From Bacillota bacterium (GTDB lineage: Bacteria > Bacillota > SHA-98 > UBA4971): a stretch of DNA of 64,000 bases. The stretch spans positions 27,878-91,877 of the forward strand of contig JAAZLO010000045.1 in assembly GCA_012689375.1 (NCBI GenBank). The letters are read 5' to 3'. The position numbers and the translations under genes were made by a program. Below, in pieces: positions 50,178-58,821 of this stretch (positions are counted from its first letter, which is position 1; every line of letters starts with the position of its first letter). The notes under the pieces are model-generated. The model did not search any database. It was not told the origin of the DNA and saw only the letters and a program-made list of their open reading frames with translations.

Positions 50178-51407
50178 ATGAAGGTATTTGTTCTTAACTG
50201 CGGTAGCTCATCTGTAAAATATCAGCTGTTCGATATGAAAGACGAATCGGTTCTAGCAAAAGGCCTGGTGGAACGGATAGGCTCTGATGATGCCACCCTC
50301 ACCCATACACCGGTAGGACGGACCGGTACAAAAAGGGTGTTGAGCATCCTTGATCACACAACCGCCATCGGTCAAGTCTTAAGGATGCTTACTCATTCTG
50401 AATATGGGGTTATTAAAGATATTGCGGAAATCCGCGCTGTCGGCCACCGTGTACTCCATGGAGGCCCTGCATTTACTCAGTCAGTTCTGATAGATGAGGA
50501 AGTAAAGCATGCTATCCGAGATTGTATTCCCCTGGGCCCGCTACATAATCCTGCGAACCTTATGGGGATTCTGGCCTCTGAATCTAATATACCTGGCGTA
50601 CCACAGGTTGCTGTTTTTGATACTGCATTCCATCAGACCATGCCTAAACATGCGTTCCTTTACCCTCTCCCATATATCCTGTATGAGCGTCATAAGGTGC
50701 GAAGGTATGGGTTCCATGGCACATCTCATAGGTTTGTTTCAGGAAGGGCTGCAGAAATACTGGAAAAACCACTTAATAATCTTAAGGTTATCAGCTGCCA
50801 TCTGGGTAACGGGGCAAGTATAGCCGCAGTAAAAAACGGAAAATCCATTGATACCAGCATGGGACTTACACCCTTGGAAGGTCTTATGATGGGAACCAGA
50901 TCCGGGGATATTGATCCTGCAATTATCTTTTATATAATGAATCGTGAAAATTTAGGATTGGAAGAAATAGATTCTTTATTAAACAAACATAGCGGGCTTC
51001 TGGGGGTTTCCGGAATTAGCAGCGATATGAGGGAAATTGAAGCCGGGACTGAACAAGGTAACAACCGCGCCAAAATTGCATTTGATATCTATGAATACCG
51101 TATCCGTAAGTATATCGGTGCCTATGCCGCTGCACTGGATGGAGTGGATGCTATCGTATTTACAGCGGGTATCGGGGAGAACTCACCCATGCTTAGACAA
51201 CGGGTATGCCAGGGTTTAGGATTCCTTGGAGTTACAATCGATCTTGAGAAAAATGATTCGAAGGGTAAGGAAGTTGATATTACAGGGGAATCCTCTAAAA
51301 TCAGGGTTTTGGTAATTCCGACAAATGAGGAGCTGGTTATAGCTAGGGATACTATGGAAATCGTATCGGCTATAAGAAAGGGGAATCTCCGGATATGTTA
51401 CAAATAA
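50178..51407 (+). CDS. ackA: Acetate kinase
   Basis: VLNCGSSSVKYQLFDM, YGFHGTSHRFVS, FTAGIGENSPMLR. Confidence 0.95.
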   Translation: MKVFVLNCGSSSVKYQLFDMKDESVLAKGLVERIGSDDATLTHTPVGRTGTKRVLSILDHTTAIGQVLRMLTHSEYGVIKDIAEIRAVGHRVLHGGPAFTQSVLIDEEVKHAIRDCIPLGPLHNPANLMGILASESNIPGVPQVAVFDTAFHQTMPKHAFLYPLPYILYERHKVRRYGFHGTSHRFVSGRAAEILEKPLNNLKVISCHLGNGASIAAVKNGKSIDTSMGLTPLEGLMMGTRSGDIDPAIIFYIMNRENLGLEEIDSLLNKHSGLLGVSGISSDMREIEAGTEQGNNRAKIAFDIYEYRIRKYIGAYAAALDGVDAIVFTAGIGENSPMLRQRVCQGLGFLGVTIDLEKNDSKGKEVDITGESSKIRVLVIPTNEELVIARDTMEIVSAIRKGNLRICYK

Positions 51408-51505
51408 AACCGGTCCCCCACCCTGTTTAGTTATTATACCGCTACCGGGATCGCAGGCTTCTAAAGGATTATACCGGCATGTACTGCTTATCCCGGTAGC
51501 AGAAA

Positions 51506-52411
51506 TTATAAAAGATGATTTAGAGTTTTAGTCCATAACTGCCGAACAGCATTGGCTGCAGGGCCTTCTGCATCATGATCAGCACAACCGGGCGGAATCA
51601 TCAGCCCGCCTTTTACAAGGGATTCAACTACTTTTTTATCAAACGGAATCTTGCCTACCACATCAATATTATTTGCTTTGCAAAACCCTTCTATATTATC
51701 TGAGGTTTTATCATCCAGATCGTACTTATTAATACATACCACTGTTTTAACATCAAAGCCCTTTGCAAGAGCGTATAATCTTTCCATATCATGGATACCC
51801 GCAATTGTCGGCTCAGTGACAATGAGGGCTAAGTCTACACCGGATATTGAGGATATCACGGGACACCCTATACCCGGGGGACCATCATTTATAATAAGGC
51901 GTGAATCAAGAGTTTCAGCAATCTGTCGGGCTTCACGCCTAACTTCCGTAACGAGTAAGCCGGAATTCTCTTCAGCCACACCAAGCCTGGCATGGACAAG
52001 CGGTCCGTAAGCGGTATCAGATACAAACCAATGGCCTGCAATGACATCCTCCATACTTATAGCTTGCTTAGGACATATATGGAAGCACACTGTACAACCT
52101 TCACATGAAATGGGATCTATCTTTGTCTGTTCCTCATGCACATTGATGGCATTAAAGCGGCATACCTTTATACATTCCCCACAGTTATCACATTTATTTT
52201 CATCAATTACAGCCTTTTTAAGACCAAAAAATTCATTTGTTGTTTTTATCTTAGGATTTAATATAAGATGGAGGTCTGCAGCATCAACGTCACAATCAGC
52301 TAAAACTATTACTTCATCGGGGAATGAATCCTTTGCCAATCTCGCAAAAGCCCCGACTATGGTAGTCTTACCTGTACCCCCCTTACCGCTTATAATAAGT
52401 AATTCTTTCAT
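51506..52411 (-). CDS. MinD-superfamily P-loop ATPase with inserted ferredoxin domain (paralogue A)
   Basis: SGKGGTGKTTIV; CDNCGECIKVCRFNAI and CEGCTVCFHICPKQAI; NDGPPGIGCPVI. Confidence 0.92.
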   Translation of the reverse strand: MKELLIISGKGGTGKTTIVGAFARLAKDSFPDEVIVLADCDVDAADLHLILNPKIKTTNEFFGLKKAVIDENKCDNCGECIKVCRFNAINVHEEQTKIDPISCEGCTVCFHICPKQAISMEDVIAGHWFVSDTAYGPLVHARLGVAEENSGLLVTEVRREARQIAETLDSRLIINDGPPGIGCPVISSISGVDLALIVTEPTIAGIHDMERLYALAKGFDVKTVVCINKYDLDDKTSDNIEGFCKANNIDVVGKIPFDKKVVESLVKGGLMIPPGCADHDAEGPAANAVRQLWTKTLNHLL

Positions 52412-52456
52412 ACCGATTCCATCCCTTCAAATGCCTTTACTGTTGCATCCTTAGAC

Positions 52457-53311
52457 TTACTTTGCCCTAACGCAAATCGCATGCCATAAATCCTGAAAAA
52501 TCTTTTTTATCTCAGGAAATTCCTCGATAAACCGCCCGCCCCTGGCATAGCATTTAGCATATTTTCTGTCAAAAGGGATTTCAGCAAGTATAGGTATATT
52601 TTCCGCCTTACAATAATCAAATAAACCACCATTACCTAACCCTGCCCGATTAATTACTACACCGAATTCAATTCCCAATTCCCCTACCATATCAACAGCA
52701 AGTGATAAATCGTGAAGCCCAAAGGGTGTAGGCTCAGTAACAAGCACACAGAAATCGGTACCGCTGACTGAAGCTACAACCGGACATGAAGTTCCGGGGG
52801 GCGCATCAATAATGGAAATAACATTGGGGGAACTGCCTTTTGTATGATTCTTCACTGCGTTTACAACTGGTGGAGCAAGGGGGCTCCCAATATTTAATTT
52901 ACCGTGTATATGAGATATCGAACCTGCATGACCCCATTCAATCATTCCAATTTCCAAAGGTTCCTCCTGGATTGCACCTGTTGGACAAAGTAACGTACAT
53001 CCACCGCAACCATGGCATAATTCAGGAAAGGTTAGAACATGATGACTCCCTAAGGGAAGAATTGCGTTGAATGCACATACTTCCCCGCACTTCCCACACC
53101 CGTTACATTTTTCCTCATCTACGATAGGTATGGGTATGGTGACTTTTGAAGAACCTTCGAAGCGGGGCTTCAGAAACAAGTGTACGTTAGGCTCCTCTAC
53201 ATCACAATCCATCACACATACAGATTCTGTCTCCGCCAAAGTTAAAGCCAGATTTACTGCGATCGTTGTCTTGCCTGTTCCGCCCTTTCCACTAGCTATT
53301 GATATAATCAT
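52457..53311 (-). CDS. MinD-superfamily P-loop ATPase with inserted ferredoxin domain (paralogue B)
   Basis: SGKGGTGKTTIAVN; CNGCGKCGEVCAFNAI and CHGCGGCTLLCPTGAI; IDAPPGTSCPVVA. Confidence 0.92.
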   Translation of the reverse strand: MIISIASGKGGTGKTTIAVNLALTLAETESVCVMDCDVEEPNVHLFLKPRFEGSSKVTIPIPIVDEEKCNGCGKCGEVCAFNAILPLGSHHVLTFPELCHGCGGCTLLCPTGAIQEEPLEIGMIEWGHAGSISHIHGKLNIGSPLAPPVVNAVKNHTKGSSPNVISIIDAPPGTSCPVVASVSGTDFCVLVTEPTPFGLHDLSLAVDMVGELGIEFGVVINRAGLGNGGLFDYCKAENIPILAEIPFDRKYAKCYARGGRFIEEFPEIKKIFQDLWHAICVRAK

Positions 53312-53420
53312 GAAGCATCCCCACTTATACTACTTAATCTCCGGTTTATTCCTTGTTGCACCATATTTCGCTTTGGAAATTTGCATATATCTCAAAAATT
53401 ATTTGTAACCACTCATATGA

Positions 53421-53807
53421 TTATTTACCACAATTACCGTGGTGATCGTGATTAGGATCCATACGGCCCTTGCCCTGACCCCGTTCGCAAAGACTGTCCC
53501 CGGCTGTAAGTACACCTGAAGCGTAGGATTGGGCAGCGTCATCAACTGGCCCGGTTACGCCCACAATGGCTTCGATGTTTTTTGCTTCAAAGAGTTCCTT
53601 TGCCCTTACACCCATTCCGCCTGCGATAATACAGGAAACATTTAATTTTTGTAAATACTCAGGCAAAAAACCAGGCTCATGTCCTGGGTTGGGAACTACA
53701 GTTTTATCTACAATCGAACCATTTTCCACGTCATATATTGTGTAACCCCCACATCTTCCAAAGTGTGGAGCTACCACGGATCCATCCGTTGCTATGGCAA
53801 TTTTCAT
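53421..53807 (-). CDS. NifX/NifB-type dinitrogenase iron-molybdenum cofactor family protein, His-rich tail
   Basis: MKIAIATDGSVVAPHFGRCGGYTIYDVENG; C-terminus GRMDPNHDHHGNCGK. Confidence 0.88.
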   Translation of the reverse strand: MKIAIATDGSVVAPHFGRCGGYTIYDVENGSIVDKTVVPNPGHEPGFLPEYLQKLNVSCIIAGGMGVRAKELFEAKNIEAIVGVTGPVDDAAQSYASGVLTAGDSLCERGQGKGRMDPNHDHHGNCGK

Positions 53808-53893
53808 TAAAGAACACTCCCTTCACAATCCTGCCTTTCGCTGATATCAATATGTTTAAAGATCGAAATCACCCAAAAAGCTCTATCCGCATT

Positions 53894-54283
53894 TTATGAT
53901 CTACGACGTCGTCGCGGCATATTCAGCCCGGTATGCGAGTCTGTTGTGGCCCCGGAAACCTGACGCAAGGTTCTCTCTTTGTAAGCCGAAATTGCATCTT
54001 GGACTGTACCGGATTCCATTACGAAAACCTTAATTCCAGCCGCTTCTAAAGCCCTGGATGCATTCGGCCCGACATGCCCTGTAACAACTGAACTAACCCC
54101 GGAATTAGCCAGGAATTGGGCACTTTGTACACCTGCACCACCTAATGCAGTGGTAGCCTCATTATCCTCGAAGTTGCATTCTTCCGTTTCTAAATCAACA
54201 ATTGCAAAATACTTGCATCTCCCGAATCTAGAATCGAATTCTGAATCCAAACTCTTATCTTGTGCTGTAATGGCAATCTTCAT
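53894..54283 (-). CDS. NifX/NifB-type family protein, Arg-rich tail
   Basis: MKIAITAQDKSLDSEFDSRFGRCKYFAIVD, C-terminus NMPRRRRRS; ATGA overlap with the upstream Mrp stop, GGGGAGG RBS. Confidence 0.88.
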   Translation of the reverse strand: MKIAITAQDKSLDSEFDSRFGRCKYFAIVDLETEECNFEDNEATTALGGAGVQSAQFLANSGVSSVVTGHVGPNASRALEAAGIKVFVMESGTVQDAISAYKERTLRQVSGATTDSHTGLNMPRRRRRS

Positions 54284-55122
54284 TTTAAAACCTCCCCATT
54301 CGTTATTCTGGCCCATTTTATACCCGAACGAAATGCTTCACTGTCATATTTCTCAATTTCGCCCAAATCACATAGTTTTGAAATGTTGGGATCAAGGGGT
54401 AATGCCCCAAGGTAGGGGATCCCCGATGATTTTGCCAATTCCTCTCCTTTGCTCGGTCCGAATAAACGGAGTATCTCGCCACACTTCGGGCAAACCGTAT
54501 AACTCATATTTTCAATGAGTCCGAGAATTTTTATATCCATTATTGATGCCATCTTTATGGCCTTCTTAACAATTAATGCGGCGACATCCTGAGGTGACGA
54601 AACGATTACTATTCCATCTAAAGGCAAAGATTGCATAACAGTAATAGGAACATCCCCTGTCCCCGGAGGTAAATCAACAATTAAGTAATCAAGTTCTCCC
54701 CAAATTACATCTGTCCAAAATTGTTTTACCGCACCTGCAATTAAAGGACCTCTCCAAATTACAGGATCATCTTCGTTCTTTAATATAAGATTAAGGGACA
54801 TAACCTGAATCCCCAAGTTGCTCTTTACCGGAAGAATCCCAAACTCCATAACCTGCGCTGATGATTCTATACCAAACATCTTAGGTATACTCGGCCCTGT
54901 AATATCAGCATCAAGCAAACCGACTTTGTATCCATCCTTTGCCAGCTTTATACTTATAAGGGCGGCAACTGAGGATTTCCCTACGCCCCCTTTGCCACTC
55001 ATTACTGCCAATACCCTGTTTATCTTATTAAGATCGCTCTGCGGAAGAACCCCAATCTTTTGCCCTGATTCAGGATGTGAAGTCTTTCTTAAATCACCGG
55101 TATCATTTGCTCCCTGTTTCAT
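54280..55122 (-). CDS. Mrp/NBP35 family ATP-binding protein (Fe-S carrier-like)
   Basis: MSGKGGVGKSSVAALI, DLPPGTGDVPITVMQ, ENMSYTVCPKCGE; start at 55122 has GGGAGG RBS (longer ORF starts 55140). Confidence 0.93.
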   Translation of the reverse strand: MKQGANDTGDLRKTSHPESGQKIGVLPQSDLNKINRVLAVMSGKGGVGKSSVAALISIKLAKDGYKVGLLDADITGPSIPKMFGIESSAQVMEFGILPVKSNLGIQVMSLNLILKNEDDPVIWRGPLIAGAVKQFWTDVIWGELDYLIVDLPPGTGDVPITVMQSLPLDGIVIVSSPQDVAALIVKKAIKMASIMDIKILGLIENMSYTVCPKCGEILRLFGPSKGEELAKSSGIPYLGALPLDPNISKLCDLGEIEKYDSEAFRSGIKWARITNGEVLK

Positions 55123-55167
55123 GGAAATTCCGCCTCCCACGCTCCGGTTTCTTAAAGGGCCCTAACT

Positions 55168-55205
55168 ATTCAGGGGACGAATACAAACGCCTCCGTCCCC
55201 TGAAT
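55168..55205. repeat. Inverted repeat between DUF5320 gene and mrp
   Basis: attcaggggacg ... cgtcccctgaat, perfect 12-bp arms, 14-nt spacer. Confidence 0.75.
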
Positions 55206-55247
55206 AACATACCGGAACGCATCCAATGTTAAGGTAGTATATTCTAA

Positions 55248-55679
55248 TTAACCTTTGTCTACGTCGCCTGTTTTTTCTCCGCCAAGTTCTTCTAAGCGCC
55301 CTTGGATTGCTTCTAATTCCTCTTTAAGCAATTCAGCCTGTTCCCTTAAAAAAGAGACTTCCTGTTCATCGGTAGCCGCGCCTCCATATTCCATATAGTA
55401 TTCAGGATATGGGTAGGCTCCTCCATAGGGATATGCAGGAGCGGCCCAGCTAGGGTGGTAAGGCGGCATCCACCCAGCTCTTACAGGTGCTCCGTACATC
55501 CGTCCCCAGCCTCCGTACATCCGTCCCCAGCCCCTGCCCCTGCCTCTGCCAAATCCCGCTCCCCTAAATCCCGGTTGCGGATTCATGTATCCAGGCATAG
55601 GAAACCCGGCGCAGTATCCTGCTGCCCGGCCGGTCATCGGACCATAACCTGCAGGTCCTGTTCTGTCTCCTCGTGGCAT
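55248..55679 (-). CDS. DUF5320-like protein (Gly/Arg/Tyr/Pro-rich with C-terminal coiled coil)
   Basis: MPRGDRTGPAGYGPMTGRAAGYCAG N-terminus, low-complexity middle, coiled-coil C-terminus. Confidence 0.85.
   Translation of the reverse strand: MPRGDRTGPAGYGPMTGRAAGYCAGFPMPGYMNPQPGFRGAGFGRGRGRGWGRMYGGWGRMYGAPVRAGWMPPYHPSWAAPAYPYGGAYPYPEYYMEYGGAATDEQEVSFLREQAELLKEELEAIQGRLEELGGEKTGDVDKG
55491..55532. repeat. Perfect 21-bp tandem duplication inside the DUF5320 gene
   Basis: tccgtacatccgtccccagcc repeated twice (encodes duplicated GWGRMYG). Confidence 0.9.
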
Positions 55680-55812
55680 ATTTTACACCTCCTCATCAAA
55701 CAATCTTTTATGAAATTGGGAGATCTCTCATCACAAGATAAAAAGATCTTTACATAAGTAGAAACGGACTTCCCAGCAAAAGCACTATTAACTTTTTCAC
55801 CCGGGAAGTAAT

Positions 55813-55860
55813 GGGCATATGCCCGTTATCATTATAACCATGGTTATGAGCAAATGTCAA
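55813..55860 (-). promoter_or_regulatory. Consensus sigma-A promoter overlapped by two palindromic operator candidates
   Basis: Minus strand TTGACA (55860-55855), 18 nt, TATAAT (55836-55831); palindromes ATAACCATGGTTAT (55834-55847) and GGGCATATGCCC (55813-55824). Confidence 0.75.
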
Positions 55861-55876
55861 TAATAAAAAAGAATCT

Positions 55877-56353
55877 TTATCCGTTGTTTTTTCCCCGTTT
55901 ACGGTGGCCCCATGGCATATTACCAAACACGTGTCCCTTATGATCTATCCTCTGAACACTTCTTCCTCTGCATTGAGGACATGTCATTTCAATACCCTGC
56001 CCGCCTTCGCCGAAGGGGATCTCAAAATCATAATCACATATTCTGCAGTTAAATTTACGCATTGCTACTCTGTAGCTCCCACCTTCTATGCGGAGAGCCC
56101 GACCTTCTACAAGAGCCCTGGCTATTTTTTCCCTGGCGGAAGTAAGATCCCGCTGGAATGTAGGTCGGGAAATTTGCATTATTTCTGCACATTCTTCCTG
56201 TTGAAAGCCTTCGAGATCCTTTAGCCGAATAGCTTCGAATTCTTCTATAGTTAATATTTCTTCTTCTAAATCCCGGAGGGGTGTCCCCGCCGGTTTAAAT
56301 GCAGTGATATTAGGTAAAAACCCTACACGTCTGCGCTTTGGGGGCCTGCCCAA
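55877..56353 (-). CDS. DUF134-family HTH protein with C-terminal CxxC...CxxC region
   Basis: MGRPPKRRRVGFLPNITAFKPAG; LTIEEFEAIRLKDLEGFQQEECAEIMQISRPTFQRDL (HTH); CRICDYDF...CPQC. Confidence 0.88.
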   Translation of the reverse strand: MGRPPKRRRVGFLPNITAFKPAGTPLRDLEEEILTIEEFEAIRLKDLEGFQQEECAEIMQISRPTFQRDLTSAREKIARALVEGRALRIEGGSYRVAMRKFNCRICDYDFEIPFGEGGQGIEMTCPQCRGRSVQRIDHKGHVFGNMPWGHRKRGKNNG

Positions 56354-56515
56354 ATTGTTCTCCTCCGTTTCCGTCTACATCATTTTTTCCCTTATATCAG
56401 TTAATTAATACAAATACCAGATTCATCTTTGAATTAGCTGAATACTAATCATATGTTCATAATTATCATAGGTCTTCCCTACCTATACGTCAAGCACTGA
56501 GAAGTACCTGTGTAA

Positions 56516-57460
56516 TTACTCTACCCCCAAATATTCCAACATTGCATCTAAATTACTTGTAGCCAGGCAAACAGTGGAATCCGCGGCTCCATAGTACATT
56601 CTTAACTCCCGGGTCCTCCTTGTAGAAATAACACCGGCAGGCAGGATCATACCGGGTGAATCACCTACCAACTCGTAGGGGCTATCCGGTCCGAAAACCC
56701 AATGATTGCTGCGGCGGATTACTTTCCAGGGTTCATTATAATCCAATAATGCCAGGCCCACCCTGTTTAAGGATGCTGATTCAGTTTTTTTCACTCCACT
56801 ATAAAGAAGGAGCCATCCCTCGTTAGTTTCAATGGGTGGAGGACCAAGACGTACTCCGGAGCAATCCCACCAATCCGATCGTGCAGATAGTACAAGCCGA
56901 TGATCCCCCCAATACCTTAAATCGGGGGAAAATGAGATCCAAATACTGGCTTTACCATTAATAACCGGGCTATGAATAAGTACATAACGATCATCAAGCA
57001 TTCTTGGAAAAAGTGTGGATGCCTGATCATTAGGGAGCAATAGTGATCCTTTTCTGTCTACGGATTCAAAGTCTTCCGTCGTAGCCAAAGAAATTGTAGG
57101 ACCACCCGGGGAAAATGATATGTATGTTATAGCATATTCTTCTCTTTCTTCCATCCAGACAATCCTAGGATCTTTTATTCCTTTTTGTCCCTCATTTGCA
57201 GTACTATCAGCCTGTAAAAAAGGTTTTCCATCAATTCTCCAATCGCTTCTGCCATCCTTACTTCTGGCAATGGTTAGGTGGGAAAACCCCCGTGTATCTT
57301 CAGCCCTGACCAGGAGAAGCGTTTCATCATCATGTTCTACAGCACCTGGATTAAAAGTAGCATTAACCAAGTATGGCCAATTAGACGGGGTAATAATGGG
57401 GTTGTCACCGTACCGGTCAAAAAGCACATCCGCAGTATGGAAACTATCATTTTGACTCAT
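56516..57460 (-). CDS. Glycosidase/phosphorylase, GH130-like
   Basis: NATFNPGAVEHDDETLLLVRAEDTRGFSHLTIARSKDG and IKDPRIVWMEEREEYAITY, five-bladed propeller family pattern. Confidence 0.85.
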   Translation of the reverse strand: MSQNDSFHTADVLFDRYGDNPIITPSNWPYLVNATFNPGAVEHDDETLLLVRAEDTRGFSHLTIARSKDGRSDWRIDGKPFLQADSTANEGQKGIKDPRIVWMEEREEYAITYISFSPGGPTISLATTEDFESVDRKGSLLLPNDQASTLFPRMLDDRYVLIHSPVINGKASIWISFSPDLRYWGDHRLVLSARSDWWDCSGVRLGPPPIETNEGWLLLYSGVKKTESASLNRVGLALLDYNEPWKVIRRSNHWVFGPDSPYELVGDSPGMILPAGVISTRRTRELRMYYGAADSTVCLATSNLDAMLEYLGVE

Positions 57461-57851
57461 AAATAGAACCTCCTGTTTGATTAACGAATAATATCCCGGA
57501 GCCTAGTATTTGACAAACACCGGTAATTTCTGCAATAAAACACAGCAATCGTACCGGTAGGTTGTTTTAAGTATTTCACTGTAAGTAGATCTTATGGTAC
57601 CGATGGGATAATTCCGGTTGTGGACTTCAATTAAAGTAAAGATATGCCAAACAATACATCGGCGGGGAGGAAAGCCCTGAGAAGCCGGTATCTCAGCTCG
57701 CGCAGCAATTATACAGACAGCATGCATAAAAACAAATCTATATACTCATATAATAACAAAAGAGTAATATGTTGTCAATTCCTCCATACCCGTACAATCC
57801 TACGTTATATTCGCCGTTCGCTGCTTACGCTAATCAATTAAATTAGAAAAA

Positions 57852-57900
57852 GCCGACAGAAGGCCGGAGTGCCGTTTATCTGCTAATACCCGGCACTCCG
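57852..57900 (-). terminator. Terminator-like hairpin downstream of cotF-like gene
   Basis: cggagtgccg (57865-57874) / cggcactccg (57891-57900), followed on the minus strand by GCC..GGCTTTTTC. Confidence 0.55.
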
Positions 57901-57934
57901 ATACAGACTTCCAATGTGAACTATGTGATTCGAA

Positions 57935-58465
57935 TTATTGTGGGTTATACATCCCGTGTTGCTGCATATAATTAAAGATTCCTTCTCCGTGTTGTTGTTC
58001 TTCTTTTTGTATATGCTGTAGCGCCTGACGAATATTAGGATTCACGGATTCAAAGATCGCTGTGTCATACGTACCCGAAATGTACTTCTCGGTCATCAGC
58101 ATATCACTGCAAAGCATAGCATCATCCTGGGCAGTCATACCCGTACTGGTTTGTTGCCCTAAGAGTTGTCCCGCCTGTGTCATGCCTTCTACTGTATGCT
58201 GCATAGCCTGATGATGGCCTTGGCCTGCATGCTGAGATTGATGTTGGCCTTGTCCTACCTGGATGTTTACTTTTTGTCCTTGAAGCAATTGATTGATAGT
58301 ATCATAATGTTGTTGTTCATGAGATCCATATTCATTAAACAACTGCTTCAATTGTGGATCTTGTGCCTGTTCCGCATAATTTCTGTATTTTTCGATACAG
58401 ATTTCCTCATGGCTTAGCTGATCCTTTAACAGCATTTGCTCTTTCTGGGTAAGCTGAAAGTCCAA
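57935..58465 (-). CDS. CotF-like spore coat protein
   Basis: LTQKEQMLLKDQLSHEEICIEKYRNYAEQAQDPQLKQLF; Gln/His-rich centre; ferritin-like helical repeats. Confidence 0.82.
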   Translation of the reverse strand: MDFQLTQKEQMLLKDQLSHEEICIEKYRNYAEQAQDPQLKQLFNEYGSHEQQHYDTINQLLQGQKVNIQVGQGQHQSQHAGQGHHQAMQHTVEGMTQAGQLLGQQTSTGMTAQDDAMLCSDMLMTEKYISGTYDTAIFESVNPNIRQALQHIQKEEQQHGEGIFNYMQQHGMYNPQ

Positions 58466-58821
58466 TTAAATCACCTCCAATTCAAGTTTGGTTTACTTTT
58501 GGCGGGTTTATACACACCCATTAAAGGAGACCCCATAAAGAATGTATCCCGTTTTAATTTGGCAGGATCTTGTAGACTAATGTAGAAAGTTTAATTATCA
58601 TCTAAAATCTTAGCAGATTTGAACTAATTTCTGTGTCTACCTGCAGTTACTGCATTCATAAATTTATAGTAAATCCTCATAGACAATTGCCGGGCAAAAG
58701 TAGGATATATGCTTAAAACATTATCGTAGACAAGGTTTCGATGATACGACTTAAAAGTTGCCGAAATTTCGGTTCAGAAGAATAAAGGGAGCACTTTCGC
58801 CATCTTGAAACTCAGGGGGGT

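Follow-up and report, generated by a model that had tools for sequence, protein, structure and literature searches.

The orp operons of Desulfovibrio vulgaris are sigma-54-dependent, with the activator DVU2106 and IHF (PMC3897727), and MrpORP of the same species has a role in Fe-S biogenesis (PMC6345978). The locus described here resembles the D. vulgaris orp cluster, in that genes of anaerobes for Mrp/NBP35, Nitro_FeMo-Co and MinD-type ferredoxin ATPase proteins are found together. Just upstream is a gene of DUF134 (PF02001), a family with no assigned function in Pfam. The literature searched, with few subscription journals, gave no function for DUF134, UPF0251, COG1342 or DUF5320, and no DUF134 operator. 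In an adapted rex strain, a possible transposon insertion was reported in Tsac_2480, a Thermoanaerobacterium saccharolyticum gene annotated as UPF0251 (PMC5886521).

We analysed a stretch of 64,000 nucleotides (the window) from a Bacillota bacterium. The surrounding genome is a 1.83-Mb draft of 140 contigs, and the close relatives that have names are MAGs of unclassified Bacillota. With high confidence, we propose from sequence comparison that the promoter of the ORP-like operon carries two copies of one operator, and that DUF134 would bind them and repress both this operon and itself, in response to a metal or Fe-S signal.

The ORP-like gene cluster and DUF134

The genes of the cluster, with their profile matches, are:

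55877-56353, minus strand: DUF134 protein, 158 aa, TTG start, the proposed regulator (PF02001, 88.2 bits; Sigma70_r4_2, 29 bits)
55248-55679, minus strand: DUF5320 protein, 143 aa, first gene of the putatively controlled operon (82.1 bits)
54280-55140, minus strand: Mrp/NBP35-type P-loop ATPase (PF10609, 313.5 bits)
53894-54316, minus strand: NifX/ORP-like protein, Nitro_FeMo-Co (PF02579, 88.3 bits)
53421-53807, minus strand: second NifX/ORP-like protein, Nitro_FeMo-Co (PF02579, 73.5 bits)
52457-53311, minus strand: MinD-type ATPase with inserted 4Fe-4S ferredoxin domains, Orp3/Orp4-like (Pfam profile search)
51506-52411, minus strand: second MinD-type ATPase with ferredoxin domains (Pfam profile search)

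The ORP-type gene set (Mrp/NBP35 ATPase, Nitro_FeMo-Co and MinD-type ferredoxin ATPases) is complete here, and relatives keep its order. The PF02001 score lies above the curated cut-off of 27 bits, and the window's regulator candidate is a clear member of DUF134/UPF0251. The protein combines a sigma-70 region-4-like HTH with a C-terminal CxxC-x18-CxxC, as the sequence-only reading of this DNA had described it (an HTH and four C-terminal cysteines). Residues S62, R63, T65 and R68 are invariant in 40 aligned DUF134 members; other members, of the ARTTV type (see below), differ at positions 62, 64 and 66.

In terms of possible sensor regions, two CxxC motifs are present in 96 of 121 sampled DUF134 proteins. 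Six scanned proteins are fused to Nitro_FeMo-Co, the same domain as in the ORP/NifX proteins proposed to be controlled:

L110, 4998-5660
L120, 4998-5747
L147, 4932-5726
L185, 4983-5777
L194, 1932-2633
L196, 4992-5729

Judged by its domain composition, such a fusion is a natural one-component sensor architecture.

Promoter and operators in the window

The gap of about 200 bp between the DUF134 and DUF5320 genes contains a consensus promoter and two perfect palindromes. Features of this gap and of the DUF134 promoter are:

55831-55860, minus strand: promoter TTGACA-18-TATAAT of the DUF5320-Mrp-NifX-NifX-MinD-MinD operon, 12/12 matches (TTGACA 55860-55855, TATAAT 55836-55831)
55846-55861, minus strand: putative operator O1, ATTGACATTTGCTCAT, an imperfect copy that includes the -35 TTGACA (55855-55860); kept in the genus and phylum-wide
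55811-55826, minus strand: putative operator O2, ACGGGCATATGCCCAT, just 3' of the -10 and over the predicted +1 (centre at about +6); kept in the genus and phylum-wide
55834-55847, no strand assigned: ATAACCATGGTTAT, 14-bp perfect palindrome in the spacer, judged to be chance and no operator; not conserved, palindrome count at chance level
56465-56493, minus strand: promoter TTGACG-17-TATGAT of the DUF134 gene, 10/12 matches; hexamers kept in relatives
56445-56460, minus strand: putative operator O3, ATGAACATATGATTAG, a degenerate copy in the DUF134 promoter; conserved within the genus and in another family of the class (f2; L099, L100)

The promoter had been reported earlier at these coordinates, together with the 14-bp palindrome and a 12-bp one (GGGCATATGCCC, 55813-55824) with centres 22 bp apart, and all of this is correct. 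It is the only 12/12 promoter match within 51,000-58,600, and the claim of a regulated sigma-70-type promoter in front of the ORP-like cluster is supported. O2 encloses the 12-bp palindrome. Its partner is the imperfect copy O1 on the -35, overlooked in that reading, and the distance between the centres of O1 and O2 is 35 bp. Both O1 and O3 are degenerate copies of the motif. At O3, the distance from the -10 to CATATG is 9 nt, equal to the geometry at O2.

The 64-kb window contains two perfect 14-bp palindromes and 15 of 12 bp, where uniform base composition predicts about 3.9 and 15.6. Since these counts match expectation, neither palindrome is remarkable alone.

No sigma-54-like (-24/-12) site was found within 55680-55900, with the whole-window count at chance, and sigma-54 control as in Desulfovibrio was ruled out on this basis. 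As for near-matches elsewhere in the same genome, those inspected resembled coding sequence or had no promoter, and they were rejected as regulon members. Another promoter-like site, TTGACA-17-TATTAT with an extended -10, is located at 57778-57750 on the minus strand, some 20 bp upstream of an ORF of 74 aa (57503-57727).

Conservation within the genus

We compared the locus with four named relatives of the same genus, with DUF134 proteins 80-82% identical and a shared gene order and intergenic promoter. The 14-bp spacer palindrome reads ATAACAATGGTTAT, ATAATTACAAGTAT or ATAATAATGGCTAT in these four genomes, and it was rejected as an operator. On the contrary, the position of the 12-bp palindrome reads (T)GAGCATATGCTC(A), also written (T)GAGCATATGCTCA, 3' of the -10, and the conserved form of O2 is ATGARCATATGYYCAT. 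O1 reads ATTGACATATGCTCAT in relatives, and this second copy kept in the genus, TTGACATATGCTCAT, spans the -35 box. Consensus -35 and -10 hexamers recur between O1 and O2. The conservation check suggested for the two palindromes thus had a split outcome: the 12-bp one is kept in genus and phylum, the 14-bp one is lost within the genus.

These results change the earlier model of the promoter. The two perfect palindromes are not an operator pair, the true partner of the 12-bp one being a site of the same consensus that overlaps the -35, 35 bp away. With this spacing in place of 22 bp, the argument that two helical turns would place bound proteins on the same face falls.

In one relative (G003; L108, 5244-5468), an internal deletion in DUF134 removes the HTH, with the operators upstream and downstream of the gene intact. 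This is possibly a recent loss or an assembly error.

Distribution of the motif in Bacillota

The sample comprised 120 DUF134-containing stretches and a separate set of 70 DUF5320 loci, chosen independently of DUF134. Mismatches were counted against ATGAGCATATGCTCAT (16 positions), with 1000 permuted palindromes as control; the counts treat related genomes as independent. A class-wide pattern with TATACT fixed proved too narrow.

Among the 68 usable DUF5320 promoters, a site with at most 4 mismatches out of 16 is present in 32 (permuted mean 0.95), and one with at most 2 in 8 (permuted mean 0.008). For DUF134 upstream regions outside the class, a site within 4 mismatches is present in 14 of 103, against a permuted mean of 1.3. 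Only 1 of the 1000 permutations reaches this count, and that one differs little from the motif itself. A prior-free search of all 4096 palindromic 12-mers in the same out-of-class regions gave GGACATATGTCC as the best (p = 6e-9, uncorrected for the 4096 tests). The overall operator consensus is approximately TTATKRRCATATGYYCATAA, and the motif recurs across many Bacillota families before DUF5320/Mrp/NifX/MinD genes and before DUF134.

Double sites were found 86 times, 51 of them with a centre spacing of 34-35 bp. The strict double-site pattern occurs at 53 places in 51 of 398 Bacillota genomes, with none for the reversed-pattern control, and an ORP-type gene or DUF134 adjoins 27 of the 30 hits examined. 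Three strict double operators (L335, 1501-1544; the area of L338, 1501-1544; L341, 1501-1544) have no recognised ORP gene or DUF134 adjoining; these are possibly extra members of the regulon.

DUF134 as the likely reader of the operators

The sequence-only reading named DUF134 as the natural candidate regulator, and this is supported by the motif before its own gene, by co-occurrence and by covariation of operator and helix. The operator is found both at DUF134's own promoter (O3 in the window) and at the target promoter (O1 and O2), and this arrangement is repeated in relatives.

DUF134 is present in 179 of 188 DUF5320 genomes versus 83 of 210 others (p = 2e-35). It is also present in 47 of the 51 double-site genomes (counted by hand), against 66% overall, and in all 26 single-contig DUF5320 genomes (two tables read together by hand). 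The nine DUF5320 genomes without a full DUF134 are all drafts, 90-97% complete; for these, an incomplete or wrong assembly, or a recent true loss, is possible. Four of these nine (G123, G150, G160, G297) still carry the site.

DUF134 was undetected within about 3 kb in at least 26 of 40 DUF5320 loci, and at these it would therefore act in trans. A site is found upstream of 14 of 62 DUF134 genes that have no ORP gene within 5 kb, a count made with four consensus variants allowed and no matched shuffled control. Many DUF134 genes have no recognisable upstream site, as in the sister genus (g2).

In terms of the recognition helix, DUF134 falls into two subfamilies, SRPTF and ARTTV, the latter with 30 loci across many families. 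Loci of the SRPTF type have operators of the conserved O2 form, which fits them better by 17 to 4. ARTTV-type loci have ATTGACATATGTCAAT or ATGACATATGTCAT, better fitting by 22 to 1. The relation of operator form to helix subfamily is significant (Fisher p = 1.7e-7), in a test that treats related loci as independent and in which the -35 TTGACA contributes to one half-site. Spacing also differs, with double sites 34-35 bp apart in the SRPTF type and 38-39 bp in the ARTTV type. The ARTTV-type operator TTGACATATGTCAA consists of two inverted TTGACA boxes.

Because operator form and spacing follow the DUF134 helix, a regulator unrelated to DUF134 is unlikely. The computation establishes which sites are conserved and how they are arranged, that they go together with ORP genes and DUF134, and that site type covaries with the DUF134 subfamily, and DUF134 appears as the likely reader of the sites. 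In two genomes (G286, L128; G018, L207-L209), the SRPTF and ARTTV types of DUF134 occur together, and the two forms of operator apparently do so too; these genomes are a natural orthogonality test.

Proposed mechanism and alternatives

We infer physical binding, dimerisation, repression over activation and the ligand from these patterns; the tight repression and the ligand response put forward in the sequence-only reading are inferences of the same kind. DUF134, encoded just upstream, would bind O1 and O2, probably as a dimer. On O1 it should exclude sigma, as the HTH is a relative of sigma region 4 and the -35 box makes up one half-site of this operator. Occupancy of O2 should block initiation or clearance, and O3 would provide negative autoregulation. 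Repression is the simplest reading because the consensus -35 and -10 need no activator. DUF134 would probably respond to the metal or Fe-S state of the ORP proteins, with the CxxC pair at its C-terminus as the probable sensor, or the fused Nitro_FeMo-Co domain in those relatives that have one. Metal-cluster status is a likely signal because CxxC motifs are common, and because the fused domain is the domain of the proteins that would be controlled.

A broader reading takes DUF134 as a phylum-wide regulator family, in which a sigma region-4-like HTH reads inverted -35-like elements, competes with sigma and senses the loading of ORP/NifX clusters, sometimes through a fused NifX-type domain. We put this forward tentatively, and rate it as rather doubtful.

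The motif might be bound by another regulator, such as an ArsR/SmtB protein, with DUF134 only a regulated neighbour. Some ArsR-family operators resemble ATATGAACATATGTTCATAT, and a few drafts with DUF134 undetected or truncated still carry the site. However, the literature searched gave no match of this sequence with ArsR, and no HTH_5 (ArsR/SmtB winged helix) domain was found in DUF134 or in the scanned cluster genes at E <= 0.001; an ArsR-type regulator was rejected on these two points. Furthermore, DUF134 is the only DNA-binding family detected in the window's cluster and is in every single-contig DUF5320 genome, and site type tracks its helix subfamily, which would be unexpected for an unlinked regulator. 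Such a neighbour role for DUF134 appears quite unlikely. Slightly better placed, yet still improbable, is the idea that DUF134 acts as an activator or a partial-sigma-like factor, which its resemblance to sigma region 4 and the position of O1 on the -35 would favour. The near-consensus hexamers need no such help, and the position of O2, over the start site, is typical of repression.

The earlier model had possibly two different regulators, suggested by the differing half-sites, at the palindromes 22 bp apart. Both perfect palindromes do exist, but the 14-bp one is lost already among relatives of the same genus, and the two conserved sites, O1 and O2, share one consensus; the model is already contradicted and hardly credible. 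It is equally hard to believe that the palindromes are due to chance, or form an RNA or DNA hairpin with no protein involved. Palindrome counts in the window are indeed at chance level, whereas the sites keep their sequence, their spacing and their placement on the promoter across the phylum, and half of O1 is located upstream of the transcript. Repression by DUF134 at two copies of one operator is the reading we retain.

Comparison with known systems

DUF134 is present in about two thirds of the 398 sampled Bacillota genomes, and a defined operator, regulon and specificity-determining helix make it a testable regulator family. This would give a first handle on the signal controlling ORP-type clusters, with their possible role in anaerobic Fe-S or Mo metabolism, outside the Desulfovibrio sigma-54 system. 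In D. vulgaris, control relies on sigma-54 and an enhancer-binding protein; here, we found a sigma-70-type consensus promoter, paired palindromic operators and DUF134.

As for protein structure, a sequence search of solved structures with DUF134 gave nothing significant. An AlphaFold2 model (mean pLDDT 81) has no Foldseek match at E <= 0.001, the HTH domain being short. Foldseek gives a probability near 1 for the HTH matches, and the modelled HTH can be superposed on both ECF sigma region 4 and the DeoR DNA-binding domain.

The DNA-binding domain of Bacillus subtilis DeoR (7bhy) is a small sigma-4-like HTH (0.7 A over 40 residues, 42% identity), and DeoR also has palindromic operators. Unlike DeoR/SorC, DUF134 has no SorC/DeoR C-terminal sugar-binding domain according to Pfam; in its place is a pair of CxxC motifs or Nitro_FeMo-Co. 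ECF sigma region 4 on a -35 element (2h27, 5fgm) has the same fold as the DUF134 HTH (0.8-0.9 A over 44-47 residues, 32-34% identity), and O1 contains the -35 sequence. In contrast to ECF sigma factors, DUF134 has no region 2, is predicted to bind an inverted repeat, and should not itself function as a sigma factor.
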